DNA of 64,000 nt from Blepharisma japonicum (taxonomy: Eukaryota > Ciliophora > Heterotrichea > Heterotrichida > Blepharismidae): positions 1 to 64,000 of the forward strand of contig CATKHK010000054.1 of NCBI GenBank assembly GCA_949751835.1, written 5' to 3'. The notes beneath the pieces were generated by a model that searched no databases, was not told the DNA's origin, and saw only the letters and a program-made list of their open reading frames with translations. This document shows, one piece after another, positions 18,355-46,266 of the stretch; position 1 is the first letter of the stretch, and each line of letters opens with the position of its first letter. Made by a program: the position numbers and the translations under genes.

Positions 18355-21042
18355 ATGGGCTGCGGTATCAAAACAATGGGAATTAAAGGAGAATACCCAG
18401 AAGAAGTGCCTGTGAACCAAATAAAAAATAATAACGAAGATTCTAAGTCAACCCCCTTCTTATCTTCAGATCAAGCACGAAAGCATCTCAAAAGAAAGGC
18501 CGCCGTTATTGATTCTCGTTTAGAAGCTCAAGAATCGGTAGATGCTCAAACCGCTACAATAACAAACAAAATTAAATCAGAAACCGATGCAAACATGATA
18601 AACAAGTCTTTAAGTCGGCATTTTATTTTCAATAGTCTTACTGATGAGCAACGAGATCTTGTAATTGACCAAATGAAGCATTATTCCTTAAGCACCAATT
18701 CTATAATTTTTGAAGAAAATCAATCAGGAAATAATTTTTTTGTTATCATTTCTGGCAAGCTTGAAGTCATTATAAAAGGTAAACGTGTGAATATTTTGAA
18801 GCCTGGGGATTCCTTTGGAGAACTCGCACTGCTTCATGATACCCCAAGAACTGCTACTATAAAGACTATCGAAAAAAGCACGCTGTGAGGACTTGATAGA
18901 AGAACATTCAGAAACGCAATAGAAGCTCTAAATGCTATGAATTATAATGAAAACAAGCACTTTATCAACAGCATCCCACTCTTTCAGATATTGACAATGC
19001 CGCAAAAGGAAGCTTTGGTGGGATCTTTGACTTCTATTAAATTCTCAGCTGGACAAAGAATAGTGAATGAAGGAGATCCTGGGGATTTGTTTTATATAAT
19101 AAAAGATGGAACTGTATCTTGTGTAGCTCATGGAAGAGAAATCAGGAGAATGACTAAAGGAGACTATTTTGGAGAGCAGGCATTACTTTATAATAGCCCA
19201 AGGACTGCAACTATTTCTGCAATTGATGATGTTAGATGTGCAGCTATTTGAAGAGAAAATTTAACAAAAGCATTGGGAAGCCACCTGCAGCAGATTATTT
19301 ATAGGAATTCTCAAAGAATGGCTCTCGATAAAAGTTCTGTACTTTGTCGGCTTATAAAATCACAAGCAGATTCATTGATTTCTAATATGAAAATCCAGTC
19401 TTTTGAAGCTGGAACTATTGTTATTGCAGCTGGAACTCCTTATGGAGAATATTTATGAATCGTCGTCAAAGGGTCATTAATAAAAGAAACTAATCGAGAA
19501 ATTTTCTCTGATGTTTTTTGCTGTATCGGCGACAAAGAAATTATAAATAATGACAATAATGGTACTTTTGATGAAAATATAATTGCTGGAGACGCCGTAG
19601 ACATTGCTATGATAAGTAAAGCAGAATTTGAAGCCTGCATAGGAGGGGAGTATTCGCAAGTGACCTCTAATAATGAAGCCTTAAAAGTACTTAAACAGAT
19701 TCAGCTTTTAAGAAGTCTTTCTTTTGAAAAAATGAATAGTCTACTTCGAGCTTTGAAAATCGAGCAATACATTGATCGGCAAGTCATCGTCCAACAGAAT
19801 AACCCTGGGGATTCTTTATTTATCATAAAAAAGGGCAAAGTGGAGGTTTTCAAAGACAATTTAAAAATTCGGGCTATTACCAAGCATGACTATTTTGGGG
19901 AAAGGTCAGTACTTTTTGATGATTTTAGGTCAGCCACTGTTCTAGCTAATGGTATGGTTAGCTGCTGGGTAATCAGCAAGGCTGATTTTCTAGAAATAAT
20001 TGATGACCAGATAAGGGTGCAGCTCTTGAAAAGAATTGAACTTCAAGATGACACAATCAACATTGAAGATTTATCAGTCGTCAAAGGTCTCGGCAAAGGA
20101 AACTTTGGGATCGTCACACTGGTTGTTCATAATATAAAACGCACTTTTTATGCATTAAAATCAGTAGATAGGCACAAAATCAATGCATATGAGCTTCAAG
20201 AAAGTCTGACTTTAGAGCGTAGAATTCTTCAACAAATGGACCATGTTTTTGTTATGAAATTAATTAAAACCTTCAGAGACACTAAACGAATTTATTTTCT
20301 GCTGGAATACGTAAGAGGGATGGATTTATTTGATGTTTTGCGACAAATGGGAATTGTAAACGAAAAAGATGCAAAGTTTTATATATCATGCTTAATTTAT
20401 ATATTAGAGCATTTGCATGAGCATGATATCGTATACAGAGATTTAAAGCCGGAAAATATCATGGTAGATGATGAAGGATACCCCAAGCTGATTGACTTTG
20501 GGACAGCTAAAATTGTTATAGGGAGAACTTATACTATTGTAGGGACGCCTCATTATATGGCTCCTGAACTTATTACTGGCAAAGGATATGGAATTGCAGT
20601 AGATTTGTGAAGCTTAGGTATCATGCTGTACGAGTTTTTATGTGGAGGAGTCCCATTCGCAGAAGATGAAGAAGAACCTTATGAAATTTATAAGAAAATT
20701 TTGGAGAGAAACTTGGCATATCCATCATGAGCAGAAATTAGTCAAAATGCTAAAAACCTTATAGAACAATTTTTAAGCAAAGATCCAGTCCTCAGGACTG
20801 GAGGAAGCTATGAAATTTTGAAATGTAATCCTTGACTGAGTGGGATGGACTGGGACAAATTGGTATGCAAAATTTTGAAAGCACCGTATATTCCGCAAGT
20901 TCCAAATTTGAGAAAAGAGGCTGACTTATCTATCAAGAAGCAAACAAGTCTGGATGAATTTATTAGTAAACAGGAAGAACAAGTTTCAGGAAATATTAGA
21001 ATAAGGAGAGGAATTGCCACTGGGTGGGATCTGGAATTCTAA
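18355..21042 (+). CDS. PKG: cGMP-dependent protein kinase (PKG) with four cyclic-nucleotide-binding domains
   Basis: 895 aa with six TGA=Trp codons and no intron. It starts MGCG (myristoylation/palmitoylation). CNB domains lie at about 86-172, 202-298, 330-425 and 446-555. A and B keep the phosphate-binding cassette (F-G-E-L-A-L-L...P-R-T-A-T; F-G-E-Q-A-L-L...P-R-T-A-T) and D has F-G-E-R-S-V-L...R-S-A-T, while C lacks it. The kinase spans about 572-826 with G-K-G-N-F-G, A-L-K, Y-R-D-L-K-P-E-N, D-F-G-T-A-K and A-P-E; the Trp of D-L-W-S-L-G is a TGA. This A/B/degenerate-C/D layout is that of apicomplexan PKG. It phosphorylates Ser/Thr targets in response to cGMP, probably at a membrane. Confidence 0.92.
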
Positions 21043-28251: not shown

Positions 28252-30339
28252 TTAACTTGAACTTAATTTAGTTAGTTTCCTGATGTCCTTGAACATATGT
28301 GCCCATGAGGCCTGTTTATAGACATCTGGATAGCTTTCTACTGTGTTTATTATGTTTTGGTAAACTTGGCCATCAGAAGTTCCAATTATAGACCCTATCA
28401 TCTTGTCTGGTGGAGCTACAGCTTCAATGATATTTATGCAATGATCACTAAGTTCTTTACAAAGCTCAAGCTCAGTTTCTCTAACAATATCAGCCTGAAC
28501 TGGATTAATTGCAAACTCCAAATATGTAGCCAAGCTTTTCTCAATTCTTTCCACTATAAAGAGATGCAATAATTTTCTAAATACCTTCCCTGTATTTTCG
28601 CATCTTGCAAGAACATCATCTGCCATAAATCTCAAGTTATTTGCCATCACTCTTTCTCCATAAGCTTTACTCAACTCTTGTACATAAAAAACTTGTGTGT
28701 TATTCCAAGCGTCTATGACTTCTGCATACTTTGCTGCATTTGTCTGTAATTTGTTTATGCATTTGTGAATCAAGTAGTTGACTCTATATTCCAGAATTTC
28801 GAAAAGAAGTTTTTCGTTGAGGAGCTCTTCTTTGTTAGAGAAATTTGCTTTGTAATTTTTAATATGGTCGAAGTCTGGGTTTAAATATTGCAGAGTTGGG
28901 CTTGTGACTTTTTGGCCTTTGTACATTCTTTGAATCTGTTTAAGGAGATATTTTCCAGTTTGCTGAGCAAGAACTGTATTATCGCCTTCCCAAGTGGAGT
29001 TTATATCTTGGTTGTTTAGCAAACGGCCAAGTGAAGAATGAGCTGAATATCCATGACCTCCACATGCTTCACGGCATTCTTTTAGGGAAAGAGCAGAAAA
29101 CTGTGTGCATAAGCCTTTAAGTGTAGATAAGAGAGCATGATATTCTTGAACTTCTTCACACTCTGGGTCAACTCTTGATTTTTGTCTGACAGATTTGAAG
29201 TCAGAGAGCATCTGGTTTGCTGATGCTCTTATTGCAAAAAGCTTCGGAATATTAGTGATCAGTCTATACTGATGAGTTTGGTAATCTAAAATGGCTGACT
29301 CTTTATTTTTGTTCCCAAACTGCTTTCTGACTGCTCCATATCTTAGTGCAATTGTTAGCCCATTTTTCATGGCATATTCTGCAAGACTTATCGTCCCTAT
29401 TCTTCCTCTCATTATCCCTCCAAGCATCATCGCAAGTCTTTTGTCATTATTTTTTATAAGGCTTTTGAATTTATTGTCAAGTGAAATAGAGCTATGTTTA
29501 TCAAGCAAGCAATCATAAGGTACTCTATAATTTTTGAAGATTAAAAAGCCGTTATCAATCCCATTTAGACTGTTCTTCTTCCCACAATCACCAATTATAA
29601 CTCCAGGCAGAGGTTCATGTGTATTATAATCTCTGATAGGAATTGCAAAGACATGGATTCCTCTATCAACTCCTTCTACAATAAGCCTTGCAAAAAGAGC
29701 GGTCATATTTGAAGATTTAGCTACCCCACCAATCCACCATTTAGCTGATGTGGCTGTTGGAGAATTAATAATAAATTCTCGAGTTATATGGTCAAAAGTT
29801 GCTGTAGTCTCAAGCATTGAGACATTTGACCCATGCCCCATTTCGGTCACAGAGAGTGAGCCATAGTCGTGGACTGCATAAACTCTATCAATAAGATTCT
29901 TGTGTTTTTGAGTGCCTAAGGATTTCAAAGTGTCTCCATAAAGACCTACAGAGACAGTGAGACGAGTTGCAACTCCTGCATCAAATTCTCCAAGAACGTA
30001 GAAAACTTGGGTTGATCTTCATGGGTCTGCCTCGTCTAGTTCTGGAGTTATATTTTGAGCAAGATAAACCTCTTGAATTTGTTTGACAACGAGTTCTCTA
30101 AGCTGATCAGTGGACATGTTTACTTCTGCTTGGTGATCGAAAAGCTTACTTGATGTTAAGAGTTGGCGAATCCTGATTACTCCTGGAGTCATAGCACGAA
30201 AATAGCTCTCGAGGATAGCTGGAGCATTTAATGGAGATCCACGCTGTCGAAAAGCCTGGAGAGAATTATCGTATGGAAGAGCAGGAAATTGGGAAAGAAG
30301 ATGAGAGTTAATAAGGCTCAATCGGTGCGATTTAGCCAT
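28252..30339 (-). CDS. Acyl-CoA oxidase (peroxisomal beta-oxidation), with PTS2
   Basis: 695 aa from ATG at 30339 to TAA at 28252-28254; one TGA=Trp (residue 107). Family signatures: T-E-M-G-H-G-S-N, W-W-I-G-G, R-Y-G-A-V-R-K-Q-F-G, a C-G-G-H-G-Y segment, and S-T-W-E-G-D-N-T-V-L-A-Q-Q. The enzyme uses FAD to convert acyl-CoA to trans-2-enoyl-CoA with release of hydrogen peroxide. There is no C-terminal PTS1 (it ends K-L-S-S-S). Instead residues 6-14 read R-L-S-L-I-N-S-H-L, a perfect PTS2 (R-L-x5-H-L) right behind the chosen Met, which supports both the start and peroxisomal import through PEX7. Confidence 0.92.
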
Positions 30340-32063: not shown

Positions 32064-35000
32064 ATGAAAGCGTTATGTTTCAATTTACTCCTAACAGTGG
32101 CTTTTTGTCAGCACACGCTCAATTGTGATGTAGGAAGAAATTGAGAGCCAACTTTAGTCCCTAATTTTCATCCTGGTAGAGAGCTTGCCTCAGGCTTAGC
32201 AAGAGGTTCCACCTTACAGCCCATTCGGCTTCATTTCGAGTATATGGATTTATATATGACAGACAGTCAAGAAAGTCTTCTCAGAGGCACAGTTATATCA
32301 GCTGTCAATAATTGATTCACAAACCTCCTATCAGTTTATCCTATACAATCAAACTTAAAGTTGAGCATATCTAAATGTAATAATGTCAATGTCCCAACAA
32401 GCCACCAAACAACAGGTGTAGCTGCTGATTATATTTTATATATTTACGGGAACACTACTTCAGCAACTTATATTGCAAGAGGAGGTGCTTGCACTTATGA
32501 CTCTGGAAATAATAACCCTTTGGCAGGGACATTTGAAGTGAATATTGCAAATTTTTTTGGCTCAGGGACTCAAAATAATATTATTAATTCTATACATGAA
32601 GTGACACATGCTCTAGTTTTTTCAAGCTCTTTGTATAGCATGTATAAACAGCCTGATGGGACTAAATATTCAAGCTACCAACAAACAGTTAATTATCCAA
32701 ATCGAGGCAAAAGTGTGACTGTTTTGACGTTTCCTACAGTTTTAGCAAAAGCACAGAGTGCATTTGGCTGTAGTACTTTAGTGGGTCTTGAACTTGAAGA
32801 TGCAGGAGGTTCTGGATCGGCTGGATCCCACTGAGATATGAGAGTGATGCCACATGATTATATGTCTCCTTCGTTTGCGTACTTCTCAGTATTGTCTGAT
32901 ATAACCTCAGCTATGTTTCAAGACTCAGGATGGTATACTGTGAACTGAGACTTTCCTCAAAGCATCATATGAGGAAAAAATCAAGGCTGCTCATGGTTTG
33001 AAAATAAATGCATAGATAATGGAGTAGCCAAATTTCCAGGATTTTGTACTAACTTGAAAAGCAGTGGCTGTGATGTCTTCCACTTATCTGAGGCTTCTTG
33101 TTATAAGGGATCTTATTCAAGCATTCCTTCTTATGAACAGTATTATAGTGACAGCACAATAGGAGGTGCTTCGCAGTTCGTGGATTTTTGTACTTATATG
33201 TATCCTTATACTAATCGCTTTTGCCAGAATACCACAGCTTCAAGCTACTATAAATATTATGGGGAAGCCCTAGGATTCACCAGCAGATGTGTTGAGTCTA
33301 CATTGCTAAGCAAAAGCTATACTTTTACTGAAAAACTTAAAGGAAATTGCTACCCAGTAACAAGCTGCACATCAGATGCAGCCTATTTGACGGTTGGCAC
33401 TCAGACTATTAAATGTCCTTTTACAGGAGGAAATGTCACTATCTCTGGGTATAATGGAGTTCTTATATGCCCAGCTTCCAGCATTTTGTGTGATGCAGTC
33501 CCTTGCTTAAACGCATGCTATGGTCAAGGAATTTGCAAGTCTGGGATATGCACTTGCAATTCAGGCTATGGCGGCAATGACTGCTCAATTGAATGTGATT
33601 CAACATGCAAAAATTGCAATGGAAGTGGCTCAACCAGCTGCACTTCATGCTATTCAACAGCTACAGTTACCAACGGAGCTTGTGCTTGTCCATCCGGCAG
33701 CACATGGGATCAGAATTCATTAAGCTGCCAAACAACTTTGACATGTGCAAGCCAATGTTTGACATGCACAACTTCAAGTCTATATGCTTGCAACTCCTGC
33801 AATTCCAATTATTATCTCTTTCTAGGGACTTGCACTCAAACTTGCCCATTTGGATACACAGCTTCAAATAGTCAATGCAGTGAGAGCTCTAATCCGAATG
33901 TTTATAAAGCCTCCTTTTATTTGTGGAATAATACATATTCAAGTGAGAATTCAGCACTCTCATTATATTTTGGAAGTTCTGACAGCTTTATGCCAACTCC
34001 AGACTCTTATGATCCAACTCTATCATACTCACGAGGAGTTTATTTCAAATCAAGCTCATATGCATCACTTCCTCCTAATAGTGTAAGCTCTACGCCTATT
34101 CTTTTGTCTCCAGTTCATTCAGCTGAAGTATGAATAAACCCAGATAAGGTTACATCTGAACAATGCATGATATCCAAGTACAATGGTGACCCTTTAATAG
34201 AATTCAAGCTAGCATCAAATCTTTTAAGGGTAAAAATATCACTAACATCGACAGCTGATTACTCTTTGAATACAAAACTATGTGATGGATTAAGTGCATC
34301 TGCACAATCTTGGCAGTGGGCAGCTTACAAAATTTCATATTCATTAAGTTCTCTGACAACTACTATTACTTTATACTTAAATTCAGGTACACTTACCTGC
34401 ACCTACAGCTCATATATTTTTATTGATACCGCCAGTTCTAGTAGCAATTCATTTTTAGTTGGGAGTGGGTACCAAGCCTATAAATATGCAGAAGGTTTTC
34501 AAGGATTTTTAGGTTCATTATACATCACAAACCAAAACAGTTATGTCCCTACCAATCCAAGCTCATTATGCATCAAAGACAATTTATGCCTTTCCTCTTG
34601 CAGCTTTTCACAATATGTAAAAGATAGCAGCTGTGGAAGTTGCTTATCCTCATGTACAAATGGATGCACAAATCCTTATAACTGCTTGTCAAATCTAAAT
34701 AGCCTCTGTAGTAGCTTTACTAACTTTACAGCCTGCTCTTCATGCAATATTGGGTCATATTTATCAGGCGGTACTTGTGTCTGCGTTCAATATTCAAGCT
34801 TTGACACATCTTCAAATACATGTTTATGCAATACTGGGTATACTTATGTGTCTCAAGGGTACTGCGCTGTCTGTGGAAATTACTTTAATACAACTGAAAT
34901 CTCTGCCTACTTTTCCCAGGATTATTTAAGCCTAATCTTGGATTTTTCAAGAAAAGTAAAGTCAGAGACATCGTCTGATTGCTCAATGATATTCCAGCAA

Positions 35001-38000
35001 GATTCTTTGGGAAAGCTAGGAACTTCTCCTTCATGTTTATGGGCGACTTCAAGCTCTTTAAAAGTCTTGTTAGGCTCAGGGGCTACCTTAAAAAATGAAA
35101 GCATTTCGCTTAACCCTCAAAATGTACAAGCAAGTGGTACACTTTGTGACCTGAATATTCAGCAGCTGACTCCAGTTGTTCAATTTAAATATGATTTGCC
35201 TACCCCAAGTGCTTGCATAGATGCTCCAACTTCATATTCACTTACATGTGCTATTTATGATTTAACCATATCTGGTGACAGATCTCAAGGAACTAGTTTG
35301 AGTTATAATTGAACAGCTACAATATCTCCTTCAAGTTCATCACTATTATCTTACATTAATAGTCAAACTGGGTCAAAGTTTACTATTCCATTGTCAATGC
35401 TTTCTGTTTCAACAATCAATGTAACACTTACTGTAACAAATTTTAGAGGAATGGTATCAAATTCTAAATCTTCAATAAGCATTGTAAGCGAAGCTTCTCT
35501 TTCTGTTCATATAGATAGTGGAAACTCTGCTGGTATTTACTCTAATGTAGTGAGTCAGTTCAAAATGACAGTTTCGAGCTTTTGCAATTCATCTTCAACA
35601 ATTGTATCATATAGTTGGAGTTATATTTCGTCTACAAATCCTTCGATAGACGTCTCTTCAGTAATTTCTAATAGCAAACAGCCAAATACTTTAATCATAA
35701 ATCCAAATCAGCTACCAGCAGGATATCAATATGTATTTAACGCAACTGCCTCTGATGGGACAATGACTGGATGGAATACTTTAACTATTTTTGTTATCCC
35801 ATCAAATCTGGTGCTAGTTTTGAATAAAGTAAGTGGATCTGTTTTCAATGGAAGTGACTTAGTTTTAGACGCTAGCAACTCTTATGATCCAGATAATCCA
35901 GGATCAACGTTGAATTTTGAATGAAATTGCTATGAAGGGACCGTAAGCTGCTTGGACTCATCAGGGAGCCTGCTGATTGGAAATGTCACCACATCGATTT
36001 TGACAATACCTGGAAGCAAGCTAAAGGTAGGAGCTACTTATGATTTTTATGCTAGAGTTTATAAAAATAATCGAACAACAACTGGAACTGTAGAAATCCT
36101 GGTCGTTGATGGGACTGGATCGATTTCAGTTAGCCAGCCGCTAAAAAGTATTGATTATCAGCACGATTTTAATTTATTGCCTGATGTTTCAGCAGGAAGC
36201 AACGCAACTTTCTTATGAACTCAAAAATCTGGTCCTTCTATTGCTACTGAAATTCAAACAAACAACTCTTATATTATGTTCCCGGGTAACTCTATGAGCC
36301 AAGGAACTGCTTATACCTATACATTGTCCATGAGTTATCAATCAGGAGAAAAGATTTATGCTGACATCTCTTGGACTACAAATGTTCCCCCTTCATGCTC
36401 TAACCTTTCTTCATCAATAAATTCTGACAATTCCTGACTTCTTTCTGCTAATTCTTGCACAGACCAAGATAGCAATTATCCTTTGAATTATCAATTTGCT
36501 TTATTTATTGACCCGACATATTATGCACTCAGCGTTCCTTCTCAAAGTTCATATATATCAGTGAATCTCCCAGCTGGTACATGGAATTTGCGAGCAAAAG
36601 TGTGTGACTCAATTGGCTCTTGTAATTTTTATCAATCAAATGTCACAGTTTCATCAAGAATTTTGCAAGGGTCAGCTAACACTGTAAGTCAGTTTAATCA
36701 AATGATTAAAAACCCTGACCTAATACCTGCAGAAATTATATTTTACAGTTTATCAACAATAGATACTGACACCTTCAGTGCGATGTTTGGTGCTTTGGAT
36801 TATTACATTACTGAGATTTCATATATTAATAATGGGGTTTTGGATACTGCTTTTACTTCTCTTCAATGCATGCTTAAGAATCAAAAGGCACTTGTAAATG
36901 ACACTTATTTAGATCTTTCTTTTAAAATATTGAATTGAACCTTAAGTAATTATGATGACTCTATTGTGGATTATCAGGTCTCAGAAATATGCAGCATGTT
37001 CGCTCCATTTTATGGGCCGGATTTTAAATTTTATATGCAATTGCAAGAGCTGCTTGACAAGGTGAACGATAATTGAATGAGCTCAACATTGCCTGGGCAA
37101 TCTAAAGAGTCTATAGAGTCGACTCTACTTTCTTCAAGTCGATTGCTTCCATCAAGTCTAGCAAATTATACATTGAGTATCCAGAACAGAACAGTAGTAA
37201 TACCTTCTGCAATCCCAATTGCCAATACTGACGTTTATGATTTAAATGTCTTCGTTTATCCGCTTGCTGGGAATCTATCAGACATCATTGATATCACTTT
37301 CAAAAGGTCAGGAGTCTACCAGAATTATAACTTGTCTATCAACCCAAGTCCCTCAACAAATTCCTTTACAAACCTTTCTCTTCCAATTGCAGTTCTGATT
37401 AATATAAATAATGCCAATAATGATACACTCGAATGTGCTTATTTCAATGATAGCAAATGAATTTCAGATAGCTGCAATATTTTGAAAACTACTGAATCAA
37501 CTGTAGCCTTTAATACAACCCACACCTCAATGTTCCAAGTCAGAATTAAAACTGATGTCATTCCTATTCCTGAGGACTCTTCAGACTGTGGAACTACTTA
37601 TGGGCCTATAGCTTCCATGATTGTTGTGGTCTGGCTGTCTTTGATATTAATCACTATTTTTGGAGTTTTAGATAGGCAATTTAAGGGCATGAGCAGTGAT
37701 TCTCTATCATTGGAGAGCATCTTAGAGATGCACGAATTGACGACACTATTTATACCCCAAGGTTCATTCAGAAGGTCACAAAAAGTTCTGCAAGTGATGG
37801 GCATTTTGCTATTTGAGCTATTCATATGTGGAGTTATTTATCGGTCTATTGACGATCCTTACAATAGCAGTGATGAAGGCTTTGACGATTACTCTTCAAA
37901 GGAGCTCCTAAAAGTGTTGATAGCTTTATTACTAGGTCAAGTCTTATCAATTGCTTTTATTATTCTGAATAATCAGTCAAGAAACTTCTCAATTTTCCAA

Positions 38001-38372
38001 GCAATTGCATGCACAACAAGCATCTTTATTTCAATTGGTTGCATTATTGGAATCATTATTTTGAATATCGATTACTGCTCAACGTATTCTGATTATTGGT
38101 TTATTAACTTTATGATTGCTTTACCTTGTGAATTCTTCCTGTTCAATCCTCTCCATTGTGTTTTCTTTGCTCTTTATAAAAGATTAAGTGCGAAAGTTAG
38201 TAGTGAAGCTCCTGGAATTGTAATAAATCGCATTGATGACTTGATCCCTGAAACAACTGAAAGAGGAGGAATTGGTGATGAAACTAGTAGATTTGATATG
38301 ATGACTGTTGATTTCAATACCATGAATTCTTTCATTCAACCGAAGGCTGCAAATGTAAAAACTGTTGAATAA
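32064..38372 (+). CDS. Giant leishmanolysin-LamG-REJ-GPS multi-TM surface protein
   Basis: 2102 aa in one frame with many TGA=Trp codons. A signal peptide (residues 1-16) leads into an M8 metalloprotease: H-E-V-T-H at 178-182, third zinc His in G-S-A-G-S-H at 256, then V-M-P-H-D-Y-M as Met-turn. Next come Cys-rich EGF/furin-like repeats (about 470-610), a laminin-G-like domain (about 613-830), a second Cys-rich block, and a long REJ-like region (about 950-1680). A GPS-like motif follows at about 1789-1829 (C-A-Y-F-N, Trp, Cys, T-H-T-S-M-F), then about five TM helices (from 1848, 1911, 1948, 1979, 2011) and a cytoplasmic tail. The REJ-GPS-TM end resembles polycystin-1; no PLAT domain is seen. 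Probably a cell-surface protease/adhesion receptor. Confidence 0.85.
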
Positions 38373-42633: not shown

Positions 42634-45600
42634 ATGAATTGTATTTGCTATCTTAGTTTGATCCCATTGGCTTATTCAATTGGCGATATGCTGATGTATG
42701 TGCTTTATTCTGAAAAAACGAATTCAAACTTACAAATAGATATGATGAACGACTTATATAGCATTATTAACCAAAATGAAATATATTTTGATATAAGGCA
42801 CTCAAAGATAGATATTACTTCAAATTTGGCTGATATTTTAGTAGCTGAGCAGATTTTTCTTACTATAGATGCAACTTTTGATGTGCATTATAGCAGAATA
42901 ATAAATCAGTACACCGAGGAAAATAGCATTGTAAATCTTATTTTAAGTCTTGATGCCAGCTTTGATGGTGAATGGCAATTTTTCCTTCACAATTCTGCCG
43001 CTCAACATCAACAAATTGCTGAAATGACTATTAATTTCTTCGATTGAAAGAACATGGCAATAATTTCTAATGAACAACAAATAAATGTAAAAGTCGCAAC
43101 AAATCTTGAAAAAAAGTTGAAAAACCGTGTCTCATTAAAATTGATACTTCCTGAATCAATAAATAGAGACAGTATAGAAAACTTAGTTAGCAAAATAATT
43201 AAGCCAAATGGTATTCAAATGTTTTGTATTCTGGAAGAAGGCCAAAGTTTTATCAATTTTATTCAGAATTTAAAAAATAAAAACATTTATAAAAAAGGCT
43301 CAGGAGTTCTAGCGGGGAGCTCTTCTATTTGGGCAGCCAATGAGAATGGAATCCTTATATATGTTGAAAAAGGACTAGAAACTGCAAAATCTTATACAGA
43401 ATATGAAATGCTGGCGATAAAACAGTTTACCGATATGATTCTTGAATATAAAAATGGAGACATGAAATATAATAATTTTGACTCACTGTTTCTGAAGCAG
43501 TTATTTGAGTCCAAAACTTTAGGGCATAGAAAATTGCCATTATTTTTTATAATAAATATTGAAAATAATGAAAAGATTATAAAAGTGTTAATAGATGGCT
43601 TTAATGCTCAAGTTTTTAATAATACTTTTTTATACCCTGGTAATACTAATACCCCTCCGAAAATCGCTGAAGCAGAGATCGTGGTTTCAATTACTTCAGG
43701 GTCAAAAGAACCAAACGGCTTACCAGATAATGTTTACAATTCTGAAAATTTTGAAGGCTCTCTATATGCCCAATGAGTTATAAACAACTCAACATCTATC
43801 TTAAAGAATTTTTATATTACCCAGTTTCCAACAGACTGCGGATCTGACACTTTTGATTTTGATTTTTATTATAATTGTATGAGTCCTTATAGTGATCAGC
43901 TTGGAGTAGCATTTCTTTCCCCTTCATTTGAGTCAGGAGCTCTTGGATATATTTTGGTTTTGAGACGCTTAGGTCTGGAAATCCCCCAGTGTAGCGCTGC
44001 AACTTCAATTAGCGAGTTGTCAAATAAAACTGAATACCCTGAATTTATGAGAATTTCAAGCAGTCCTTACGATTTTGCAATCGCTGTAACTAAAATGATT
44101 ACATATTTTGGATGGAATAATATTGCTGTCATCTATAGCAATGATTCTACCATGGCATCTCTGTACAGAGTATTCACTGCGAATTGTGCAAGGTTAGATA
44201 TATCTATTTTGAATGATGAAAATAAAAGGATGATCTCACCAGGCTATCTAAGAAGCAATTTCGGGAAATTTAAATACCTATTTCAAAATATCTATGATTC
44301 AAAGGCCAGAATTTGCATTATGCTTATGAGTGTTATATCTTCTCTGCATGCAGTAGAAAGCTTATATGATATTGGCTTTCGGAAAGGGGATATCATTCTA
44401 ATTTTTAAGAGCAAAATAGGAGGAGCCCAAGCTTCCTTTAATGATCTTCCAGAATTTGTAGATAAAAGAAAAGAATTAATCTTAGGATCTTTGAGTTTTT
44501 CAAGTATAGAATATTTTGGAGAATATGGAGCACAAATTGAATCGGAAATCGCAAAAGCTTTTTATCCAGAAGATCCAAGCTATAAATGCTTTTCATTTGA
44601 TGCTTTTATGCTTGCAGCCAATGGACTTGATTATACTATAAATCAAGGTGGAGAAATCGAAAATCCTTGATTATTAAATAAAAATATAAGAAAACAAAGA
44701 TTTGTTGGCTGCAGCGGAATTATTTCTATTAATTCAAATACCAATGATAGAAATTCTTCTCCAAGACAACTAATGAATTTTTATTATAATAGCACAGACA
44801 AAACATATTATGAAGCATTGGCTATTGTGTTTAATCTAGAATCATCAAAGCCTCTGACTGTTTTGCAGCAAATTATTTGGCCTGGTGGCTCTTATGAGAT
44901 TCCAAAAGATTTGAGAGATAAAAATTTTGACTGCCCATTTGATAAAAAACTTATTAGAAGATCTGAACAAGGTATTGGATTGCTTTTTGGCATATGCTTT
45001 TCAATTTTTTCTATATCAGGAATTATCATCTTATACTTATGAAAGAGATGAAAATTAATTGACTTACCTAAACTTAAAAAGCAGAAAAATTTAAAATTCG
45101 CTGATATTATGATTTATTTAGTTATTGTAACCGATTTCTTTCAATATCTTTATTTAGGCCCTCCAATATCAATTAATCCTCTGGTAGCGTATATTAGTGA
45201 AGTAACTTCTGCAGATTTATCAAGTATTATTTCTCTTAAAGGGTCAATTTTTTGAATTGAAATGATTCTTGCTCTTTCTATAGCTTCTTTGAGCATCTTT
45301 TTATATATTTTTACAGTAACAAGATTCAAATATTATTTTGAATTAAAATGTTGTATAGATATAAAAGCCTTAACAGAATTATTAATGCCTATACTTGGAA
45401 ATGTTTTATTTATCCCAATTTTTTCTTTTCTATTGAATATCTTTGCATGCACTCATTCGACTGGACAGAAAATCTCTGAAACTTATTTAGACCATGACTG
45501 TTATCAATATTGCTGACAAGGAAAACATTTGATATTTGCTATACTTTCTATAATAGCAATTTTCATTTATGTGCCTTTAACAGTTTATTTTCGGCCCTCA

Positions 45601-46266
45601 TATCAAGAAGTTCAAGAGTCTCTAAATATAAAAACAATGCCAAAGTACTTTTTCATTAAGAGTTTTACTCAAATTTTCTTTGTAGTCCTCAAGAAAACTC
45701 TTGGTCTTTATCAATCACAAATTCACGGATTTGTATATTTAGTTGTGTTTTTTGTTTATATTTGAATTACTACTAGAATAAAACCATATAATTATGAGAA
45801 AATTTCTCTGGTTCTTTTAGTTTCATTGCTTATGGTAAATTGATCCGTATTGTGGACATCGGTTGCAAATGTCTTTGAAATGGCATCTTTCCCCTGTTTA
45901 TGCTGCCAGCTAGTTGGCTGAGCAGCAATTTTTGTATGGGGAGCTTGGAAGTCTAAAAAAATTCCTTCTCTGATTTTATCTAAGGAAGGGATTGATGTGT
46001 CAGTTTTATTTAAATTTATGCTTGGGCAGATTGAAGCATCTCAAATTAGCCAAAGAACAAAATTTGTTTCTAAGAAAGAAATAGAAAATCCGTGAAATAG
46101 CATTCATAATCAATATGAAGAAAAATTAGAATTAAAAGTCCAAGATGATTCTTTTCAAGAAAAACCTTCTAATCAAGTAGATATGAGCATACGAATAGAT
46201 GAAAATGAAGCTCTAGAAAAAAACGAAGAAACAGCAAGACCATTTTCAGCTCGGAAAATTTTATAA
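42634..46266 (+). CDS. Multi-TM receptor with periplasmic-binding-protein-like ligand domain
   Basis: 1210 aa in one frame using many TGA=Trp codons; TAA at 46264-46266. A signal peptide (about 1-16) precedes a long extracellular region. Within it, about 400-700 resembles the type 1 periplasmic-binding / ANF-receptor fold (G-V-A-F-L-S-P-S-F-E-S, A-A-T-S-I-S-E-L, M-I-T-Y-F-G-W-N-N-I-A-V-I-Y-S-N-D). About eight TM helices lie between 782 and 1105 (starts near 782, 821, 872, 913, 964, 1032, 1058, 1086), followed by a charged cytoplasmic tail of 105 residues. The layout is that of class C GPCR-like receptors, though the TM part is divergent. The ligand is unknown; amino acids or peptides are typical for the fold. 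Confidence 0.78.

Follow-up and report, generated by a model that had tools for sequence, protein, structure and literature searches.

A leishmanolysin-type protease fused to a REJ domain, a GAIN-like region and a multi-transmembrane end in the ciliate Blepharisma japonicum

The window, that is, the whole stretch of 64,000 nucleotides analyzed here from contig CATKHK010000054.1 of Blepharisma japonicum, contains a gene that joins a zinc metalloprotease of the leishmanolysin (M8) family to a REJ domain, a GAIN-like region and a transmembrane (TM) end (Table 1). This is a real fusion, one gene rather than two. Based on the residues that are conserved in its relatives, the product is probably a membrane-tethered, active cell-surface zinc ectoprotease, standing on a REJ-GAIN stalk and held by about five TM helices. 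We searched the genome (45.2 Mb, 224 contigs) for related genes, which are named here after their contigs; C54 is the gene under study.

Table 1. Features of the C54 gene and its product, in window positions
Feature	Position	Strand	Basis
Whole gene	32064..38372	+	2102-aa frame, TGA = Trp; P0002 90% identity, no gaps
Signal peptide	32064..32120	+	hydrophobic N-terminus, judged by eye
Short propeptide with Cys21 (codon at 32124), candidate cysteine switch	32121..32255	+	
M8 (leishmanolysin) metalloprotease	32256..33497	+	Pfam PF01457 2e-66; PDB 1lml 1.6e-42
HEVTH; third His codon at 32829	32595-32609	+	
EGF-like and furin-like Cys repeats	33498..33881	+	PF23106 0.0005, below cut-off; conserved Cys columns
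LamG-like (concanavalin-fold) domain	33882..34568	+	PF13385 0.00015, below cut-off here
Second Cys-rich stretch	34569..34883	+	conserved Cys columns
Linker to REJ, conserved in relatives	34884..35570	+	
REJ domain	35571..36701	+	PF02010 8.2e-28; same place in six-frame genome search
GAIN-like region: helical part, then strands	36702..37541	+	low-confidence model; Foldseek
Degenerate GPS: C1791, W1799, C1804, H1820-T1821-S1822-M-F1824	37434..37535	+	alignment with 17 other tails; C78 7.6e-6; hhalign 1.8e-5
TM helix 1	37593..37682	+	hydropathy
TM helix 2, after a loop of ~32 residues	37779..37850	+	hydropathy
TM helix 3	37899..37976	+	hydropathy
TM helix 4	37986..38084	+	hydropathy
Probable TM helix 5	38094..38168	+	below threshold here; above in C8, C46, C1; aligned

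Results

A single gene read with TGA as tryptophan

A preliminary description of this DNA proposed an uninterrupted 2102-aa frame belonging to one gene, and both points held. The frame is open when TGA is read as Trp (the Blepharisma code) and ends with TAA at 38370-38372, while 13 TGA codons would interrupt it under the standard stops. All 13 positions are Trp in P0002, the corresponding protein of B. stoltei, and 11 of the 13 are Trp in the paralog C8 and likewise in the paralog C46. In B. stoltei, UGA has been reported to encode Trp and introns are mostly 15 and 16 bp long (PMC9942806). Given the base composition, the chance that neither TAA nor TAG occurs in 2102 consecutive codons is about 10^-44.7.

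P0002, the closest match of the gene, has the same length and matches from end to end. Its identity to the C54 protein is highest in the M8 part (95.4%) and the EGF/furin part (95.3%), followed by LamG (90.8%), the REJ, GAIN and TM end (87-89%) and the tail (77%). Its records are titled "unnamed protein product" and "EGF-like domain-containing protein", and both M8 and REJ figure in its precomputed Pfam list. When the frame was scanned for 15-nt strings beginning with GTA and ending with AG, one was found compared to about six expected from the base composition. Since this string falls within conserved M8 sequence that aligns without gaps to the paralogs, and the ortholog is gap-free, nothing points to an intron or to a second gene.

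That two genes were merged through an assembly or gene-model error is extremely improbable. Besides the gap-free ortholog of equal length, the paralogs C8 (2064 aa, 50% identical to the C54 protein) and C46 (2324 aa, 42% identical) have the same domain order, each in a single frame. Moreover, a separate JGI contig encodes P0003, whose 2111 aa form an exact suffix of the C46 protein, which points to the same organism, or one almost identical to it, having been sequenced independently. The database proteins P0004, P0008, and P0009 also join a protease to REJ.

Three further frames in the window were assigned. An acyl-CoA oxidase (28252-30339, minus strand) adjoins the protease gene, and a similar acyl-CoA oxidase-like frame adjoins the M8 gene on C9 (L031, by eye). 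A kinase with cyclic-nucleotide-binding domains lies at 18355-21042 (plus strand), and a 1210-aa frame at 42634-46266 (plus strand) contains an ANF_receptor ligand-binding region (7e-20).

The protease head and the N-terminal half

The protease head is well supported. Peptidase_M8 covers residues 65-478 with 225.2 bits against a cut-off of 21, and the one solved structure that was matched is leishmanolysin (1lml). The zinc-site residues H178, E179, H182, and H256 are identical in all five aligned Blepharisma proteins. HExxH is kept in 9/9 family proteins that reach the site, the C54 protein included (P0003 starts after HExxH and is therefore outside this count), and the distal His is found in all 10 proteins examined. 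Leishmanolysins are kept latent through their propeptide. In the short propeptide found here, Cys21 is identical across the five aligned Blepharisma proteins, and by analogy it is possible that it serves as a cysteine switch.

The Cys-rich EGF/furin repeats and the LamG-like domain that had been described behind the protease were also recovered, both under the Pfam cut-offs in the C54 protein itself. The EGF match is teneurin-like, and Laminin_G_3 covers residues 663-821 with 22.4 bits (cut-off 27.6). LamG scores above the cut-off in C46 (the same protein as P0003), P0004, and P0008. In P0009 it was absent at E 0.01 in our Pfam scan and present in the database's own list.

The REJ domain

Pfam places REJ at residues 1170-1546 (377 residues; 97.6 bits, cut-off 25), in agreement with the REJ region of the preliminary description. 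The REJ domain is the defining feature of the REJ (PKD1) family and has about 600 residues with six conserved cysteines (PMC1934368). Linker and REJ together are 28-30% identical over about 610 aa to P0004, P0005, and P0008. The REJ of C8 went unreported by Pfam in a whole-protein scan at E 1; it scores 7.4e-15 in the six-frame search, and C8 aligns along its whole length. In P0005 the REJ is invisible to Pfam and is seen by alignment only (28% over 611 aa).

A GPS relative in a GAIN-like region

At E 10, a setting at which the HMMER filters discard most weak matches, Pfam still reports no GPS for the tail, and thus the segment before TM1 is a GPS relative rather than a Pfam GPS. When the tail (residues 1511-2102) was searched against its own genome, 47 matches were obtained, self included, and C8 and C46 matched over nearly the full length. 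Residues 1754-1844 match the GPS of a gene on C78 (E-value in Table 1), and another match of the tail falls on that of a second C78 gene (5.9e-5). Pfam recognizes the GPS of both, and C78 has the same H-T-S-x-F within it. C-W-C is present in 18/18 aligned tails and H-x-[ST] in 14, which are all ten tails of REJ genes without a protease and four of the eight protease-headed ones. The cleavage-site His is kept in C54, B. stoltei, C8, and P0005 and is missing from C46, P0004, P0008, and P0009.

With hhalign, three protease-headed tails aligned at the GPS segment with two canonical-GPS tails (probability 78%). A profile of 13 tails matched adhesion GPCR structures at their GPS (best 8e-4), and the same profile without its two canonical sister rows gave no PDB match. 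Both structure models are of poor quality (pLDDT 48.6 and 37.6). A low-confidence model begins with seven helices, continues with about eleven strands and closes with long helices; its H-T-S turn joins the final two strands. In Foldseek, GAIN structures were the only two matches below 0.001 for the pLDDT 48.6 model (8.6e-5 and 2.4e-4), with query TM-scores of 0.13 and 0.11; in the GAIN-fold comparison the VIA rows were mixed. The C54 segment lacks the Cys pair beside the cleavage site, and its position -1 is Thr, not Leu. We therefore take the segment for a relative of the GPS in which the usual Cys pair is missing. The motif that had been proposed stands by its C-W-C, its H-x-S-x-F and its C78 match, and does not stand as a GPS recognized by Pfam.

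Self-cleavage of the C54 protein between Thr1821 and Ser1822 is conceivable from this motif, with a likelihood that we place somewhat short of even. The cleavage consensus, His-Leu before and Ser/Thr after the cut, is frequently lost in adhesion GPCRs, and GPS cleavage is dispensable in LAT-1 of Caenorhabditis elegans (PMC3776922). The release by cleavage that had been suggested is plausible for this protein (H-T-S-M-F, cut after T). It is unlikely to be the core function of the family, because four of the eight protease-headed proteins lack the His and one paralog lacks both REJ and GAIN.

The transmembrane end

Four TM helices exceed the hydropathy threshold in the C54 protein and the fifth is clear in three relatives (Table 1), which agrees with the earlier estimate of about five. 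The absence of PLAT was borne out as well: Pfam finds neither PLAT nor PKD_channel anywhere in the 2102-aa protein, and the loop between TM1 and TM2 is too short for PLAT. PLAT after TM1 is usual, not defining, in the REJ (PKD1) family. None of the 13 tails in the scan, of which ten belong to REJ genes that lack a protease head, gave a PLAT match; a PLAT search of the whole genome gave no match, and its control was likewise silent. As far as these scans can tell, the missing PLAT is not special to the C54 protein.

Polycystin-1 has 11 TM helices with a channel half. The C54 protein is not classed as polycystin-1 proper, since the frame stops after four to five TM helices and no PKD_channel was found in it. 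Nor does it have the 7TM part of an adhesion GPCR, as there are four to five hydrophobic helices rather than seven. A profile of the TM end had no polycystin among its 15 PDB rows, so the label "polycystin-1-like" has support in the REJ and GPS parts only. In P0004 no TM helix beyond TM1 is seen, and P0008 and P0009 stop before TM1; their early ends perhaps lie at an intron. The multi-TM end is therefore established only for the Blepharisma proteins and P0005.

The gene family in the genome

There are 10 M8 matches in the genome and 54 REJ matches at 51 places (three split hits were merged). REJ lies downstream of M8 within 6 kb in three of the 10 M8 genes (C54, C46, and C8), where 0.03 would be expected by chance. 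The same domain order is found in C8, C46, B. stoltei, P0004, P0008, and P0009, and by alignment in P0005. Four of these are further protease-REJ proteins from the database: P0004, P0008, and P0009 are 67-68% alike, and P0005 is divergent. In the C1 paralog (1126 aa), five TM helices come directly after the protease, EGF and a LamG-like stretch, and both REJ and GAIN are missing. Two other M8 genes, on C9 and C65, encode short proteins whose tail is hydrophobic and, judged by eye, GPI-like. Four M8 genes are clustered at C1:884000-899300, one of which is the REJ-less five-TM form. A partial copy of the tail of the C46 gene lies directly downstream of that gene (C46:113344-113880).

GAIN and TM content is known for ten tails out of the 51 REJ places. 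All ten come from REJ genes without a protease (L061-L070) and have a GPS segment with His-x-Ser/Thr; by hydropathy, nine have five TM helices and one has four. Among six REJ frames that were spot-checked, five showed REJ, and the L012 frame, which was without any family, was probably a wrong frame. For the Cys-LamG module (residues 478-852), the genome search gave 110 matches. It lies within 6 kb upstream of REJ at 13 of the 51 places, three with M8 further upstream and 10 without M8; this count used 40 of the 110 rows, the rest being by eye on REJ-less contigs or fragments of C46 and C1. Since Cys-LamG is shared by part of the REJ family, the C54 protein is best viewed as a member of the large REJ-GAIN-5TM surface family that has been capped with M8. 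Many Cys-LamG matches, among them those on C69, C37, C55, C75, and C78, lie next to one another, suggesting large surface proteins built of LamG repeats.

Two trees were examined, both limited by long branches. In the M8 tree, which includes eight of the 10 M8 genes of the genome (C71 and C1:898k were left out), C46 groups with two M8 genes lacking a detected REJ, and C54, B. stoltei, and C8 group with C1 and P0005. This tree gives no single origin for the REJ-bearing rows, which need four changes, at least two of them forced. In the tail tree, C54, B. stoltei, C8, C46, and P0005 form a clade (95/93) and the P0004 group is placed apart with weak support. Here the protease-headed rows need two changes, and one is still possible. 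An old fusion with losses would fit, and a single origin is possible.

Discussion

Proposed function

The features that stay constant among the proteins examined are the zinc site and, where the frame extends that far, the membrane anchor. The GPS His varies, and so does the REJ-GAIN part, which C1 lacks. As C1 keeps the protease and five TM helices without REJ or GAIN, protease plus anchor appears to be the constant unit. Together with HExxH kept in 9/9 proteins and the GPS His-x-Ser in only 4/8, this leads us to favor a tethered ectoprotease.

Such a protein would be secreted by its signal peptide and could be held latent by the short propeptide with its conserved Cys, as in leishmanolysins. 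With its zinc ligands conserved, the M8 site would be active outside the cell. The Cys-rich and LamG parts may bind a partner or a glycan, and the REJ-GAIN part would act as a stalk. In the ortholog group of C54, the H-x-S motif suggests that GAIN probably cuts between Thr1821 and Ser1822 and that the protease part stays bound non-covalently; the cleaved, protease-bearing part could then be shed or come away when pulled. In relatives that lack the His, the protease would remain permanently tethered.

The protein might instead be a self-cleaving receptor whose main output is signaling, in which a tethered agonist, bared by release at the GPS, would act as the switch of the five-TM part; this mode of action has been proposed for adhesion GPCRs and polycystin-1. 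Such an agonist has been described for polycystin-1 (PMC9672506), and H-x-S is kept in C54, B. stoltei, C8, and P0005, as is H-x-[ST] in all ten protease-less REJ tails. However, the His is missing from half of the eight protease-headed proteins and GAIN from one paralog, no channel domain was found in the protein, and the TM helices are too few for a 7TM receptor. We therefore regard this receptor as rather unlikely. Still less likely is an adhesion receptor in which M8 is mainly a binding domain or a mechanical cap. The ectodomain is long and of adhesive type, and Cys-LamG lies upstream of REJ at 13/51 places, 10 of them without M8, but a pure binder would not need the HExxH (9/9) and distal His (10/10) that are conserved. 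A tethered ectoprotease thus remains the reading that we prefer.

Tentatively, and below both the ectoprotease reading and self-cleavage of the C54 protein in likelihood, the REJ-GAIN-5TM proteins may constitute a third class of GAIN receptors, lacking a 7TM or channel part, with perhaps about 50 genes in this genome, one branch of which would shed an active metalloprotease by its own self-cleavage. Two publications state that adhesion GPCRs and PKD1-like proteins are the only known carriers of GAIN domains (PMC9672506; PMC11697300). A ciliate family with REJ, a GAIN-like region and about five TM helices, some of its members headed by a protease, would, if true, widen the range of settings in which GAIN works. 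Since one cell holds proteins with the His, proteins without it and one without GAIN, a comparison of the paralogs could serve to test what GPS cleavage does.

According to the preliminary description, no protein with this exact order had been described. As regards publications this agrees with our searches, while the order itself is present in B. stoltei and in database proteins. In a limited literature search, no publication was found that joins leishmanolysin and egg jelly, and none of the matches listed for leishmanolysin and the REJ domain contained both. Publications joining leishmanolysin, transmembrane and polycystin were unrelated, judging by title and the start of the abstract, and a wider search had no Blepharisma publication among the matches listed. 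The main text of the B. stoltei genome paper contains neither "leishmanolysin" nor "protease" (PMC9942806).

Comparison with known systems

The C54 protein shares with leishmanolysin/GP63 the catalytic domain with its zinc ligands, the Cys-rich stretch that follows it and probably the surface address. Most leishmanolysins of Philasterides have Cys-rich regions, a C-terminal TM helix and a predicted GPI signal (PMC13384842). In contrast, no REJ, GAIN or multi-TM end was mentioned or seen for these or for the short C9 and C65 proteins, and C54 adds about 1600 residues.

Members of the polycystin-1/sea urchin REJ (PKD1) family have REJ, a GPS segment just before TM1 and a multi-TM end (PMC1934368). 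C54 shares these three features, but it has an M8 head, lacks PLAT after TM1 and has no channel half. With adhesion GPCRs it shares a GPS segment before TM1, here within a GAIN-like region, and the profile that includes canonical rows matches their GPS. Unlike them, it has four to five TM helices instead of seven, and its GAIN-like part is preceded by REJ. For the GAIN/7TM module an origin in stem holozoans has been proposed, in a study whose tree is rooted with the 7TM of an adhesion-type GPCR from Stentor (PMC12716839). The REJ-GAIN-5TM genes of the same genome share REJ, the GPS segment and the TM end with C54, and some of them have Cys-LamG as well; they differ from C54 in having no protease head and a longer loop between TM1 and TM2.
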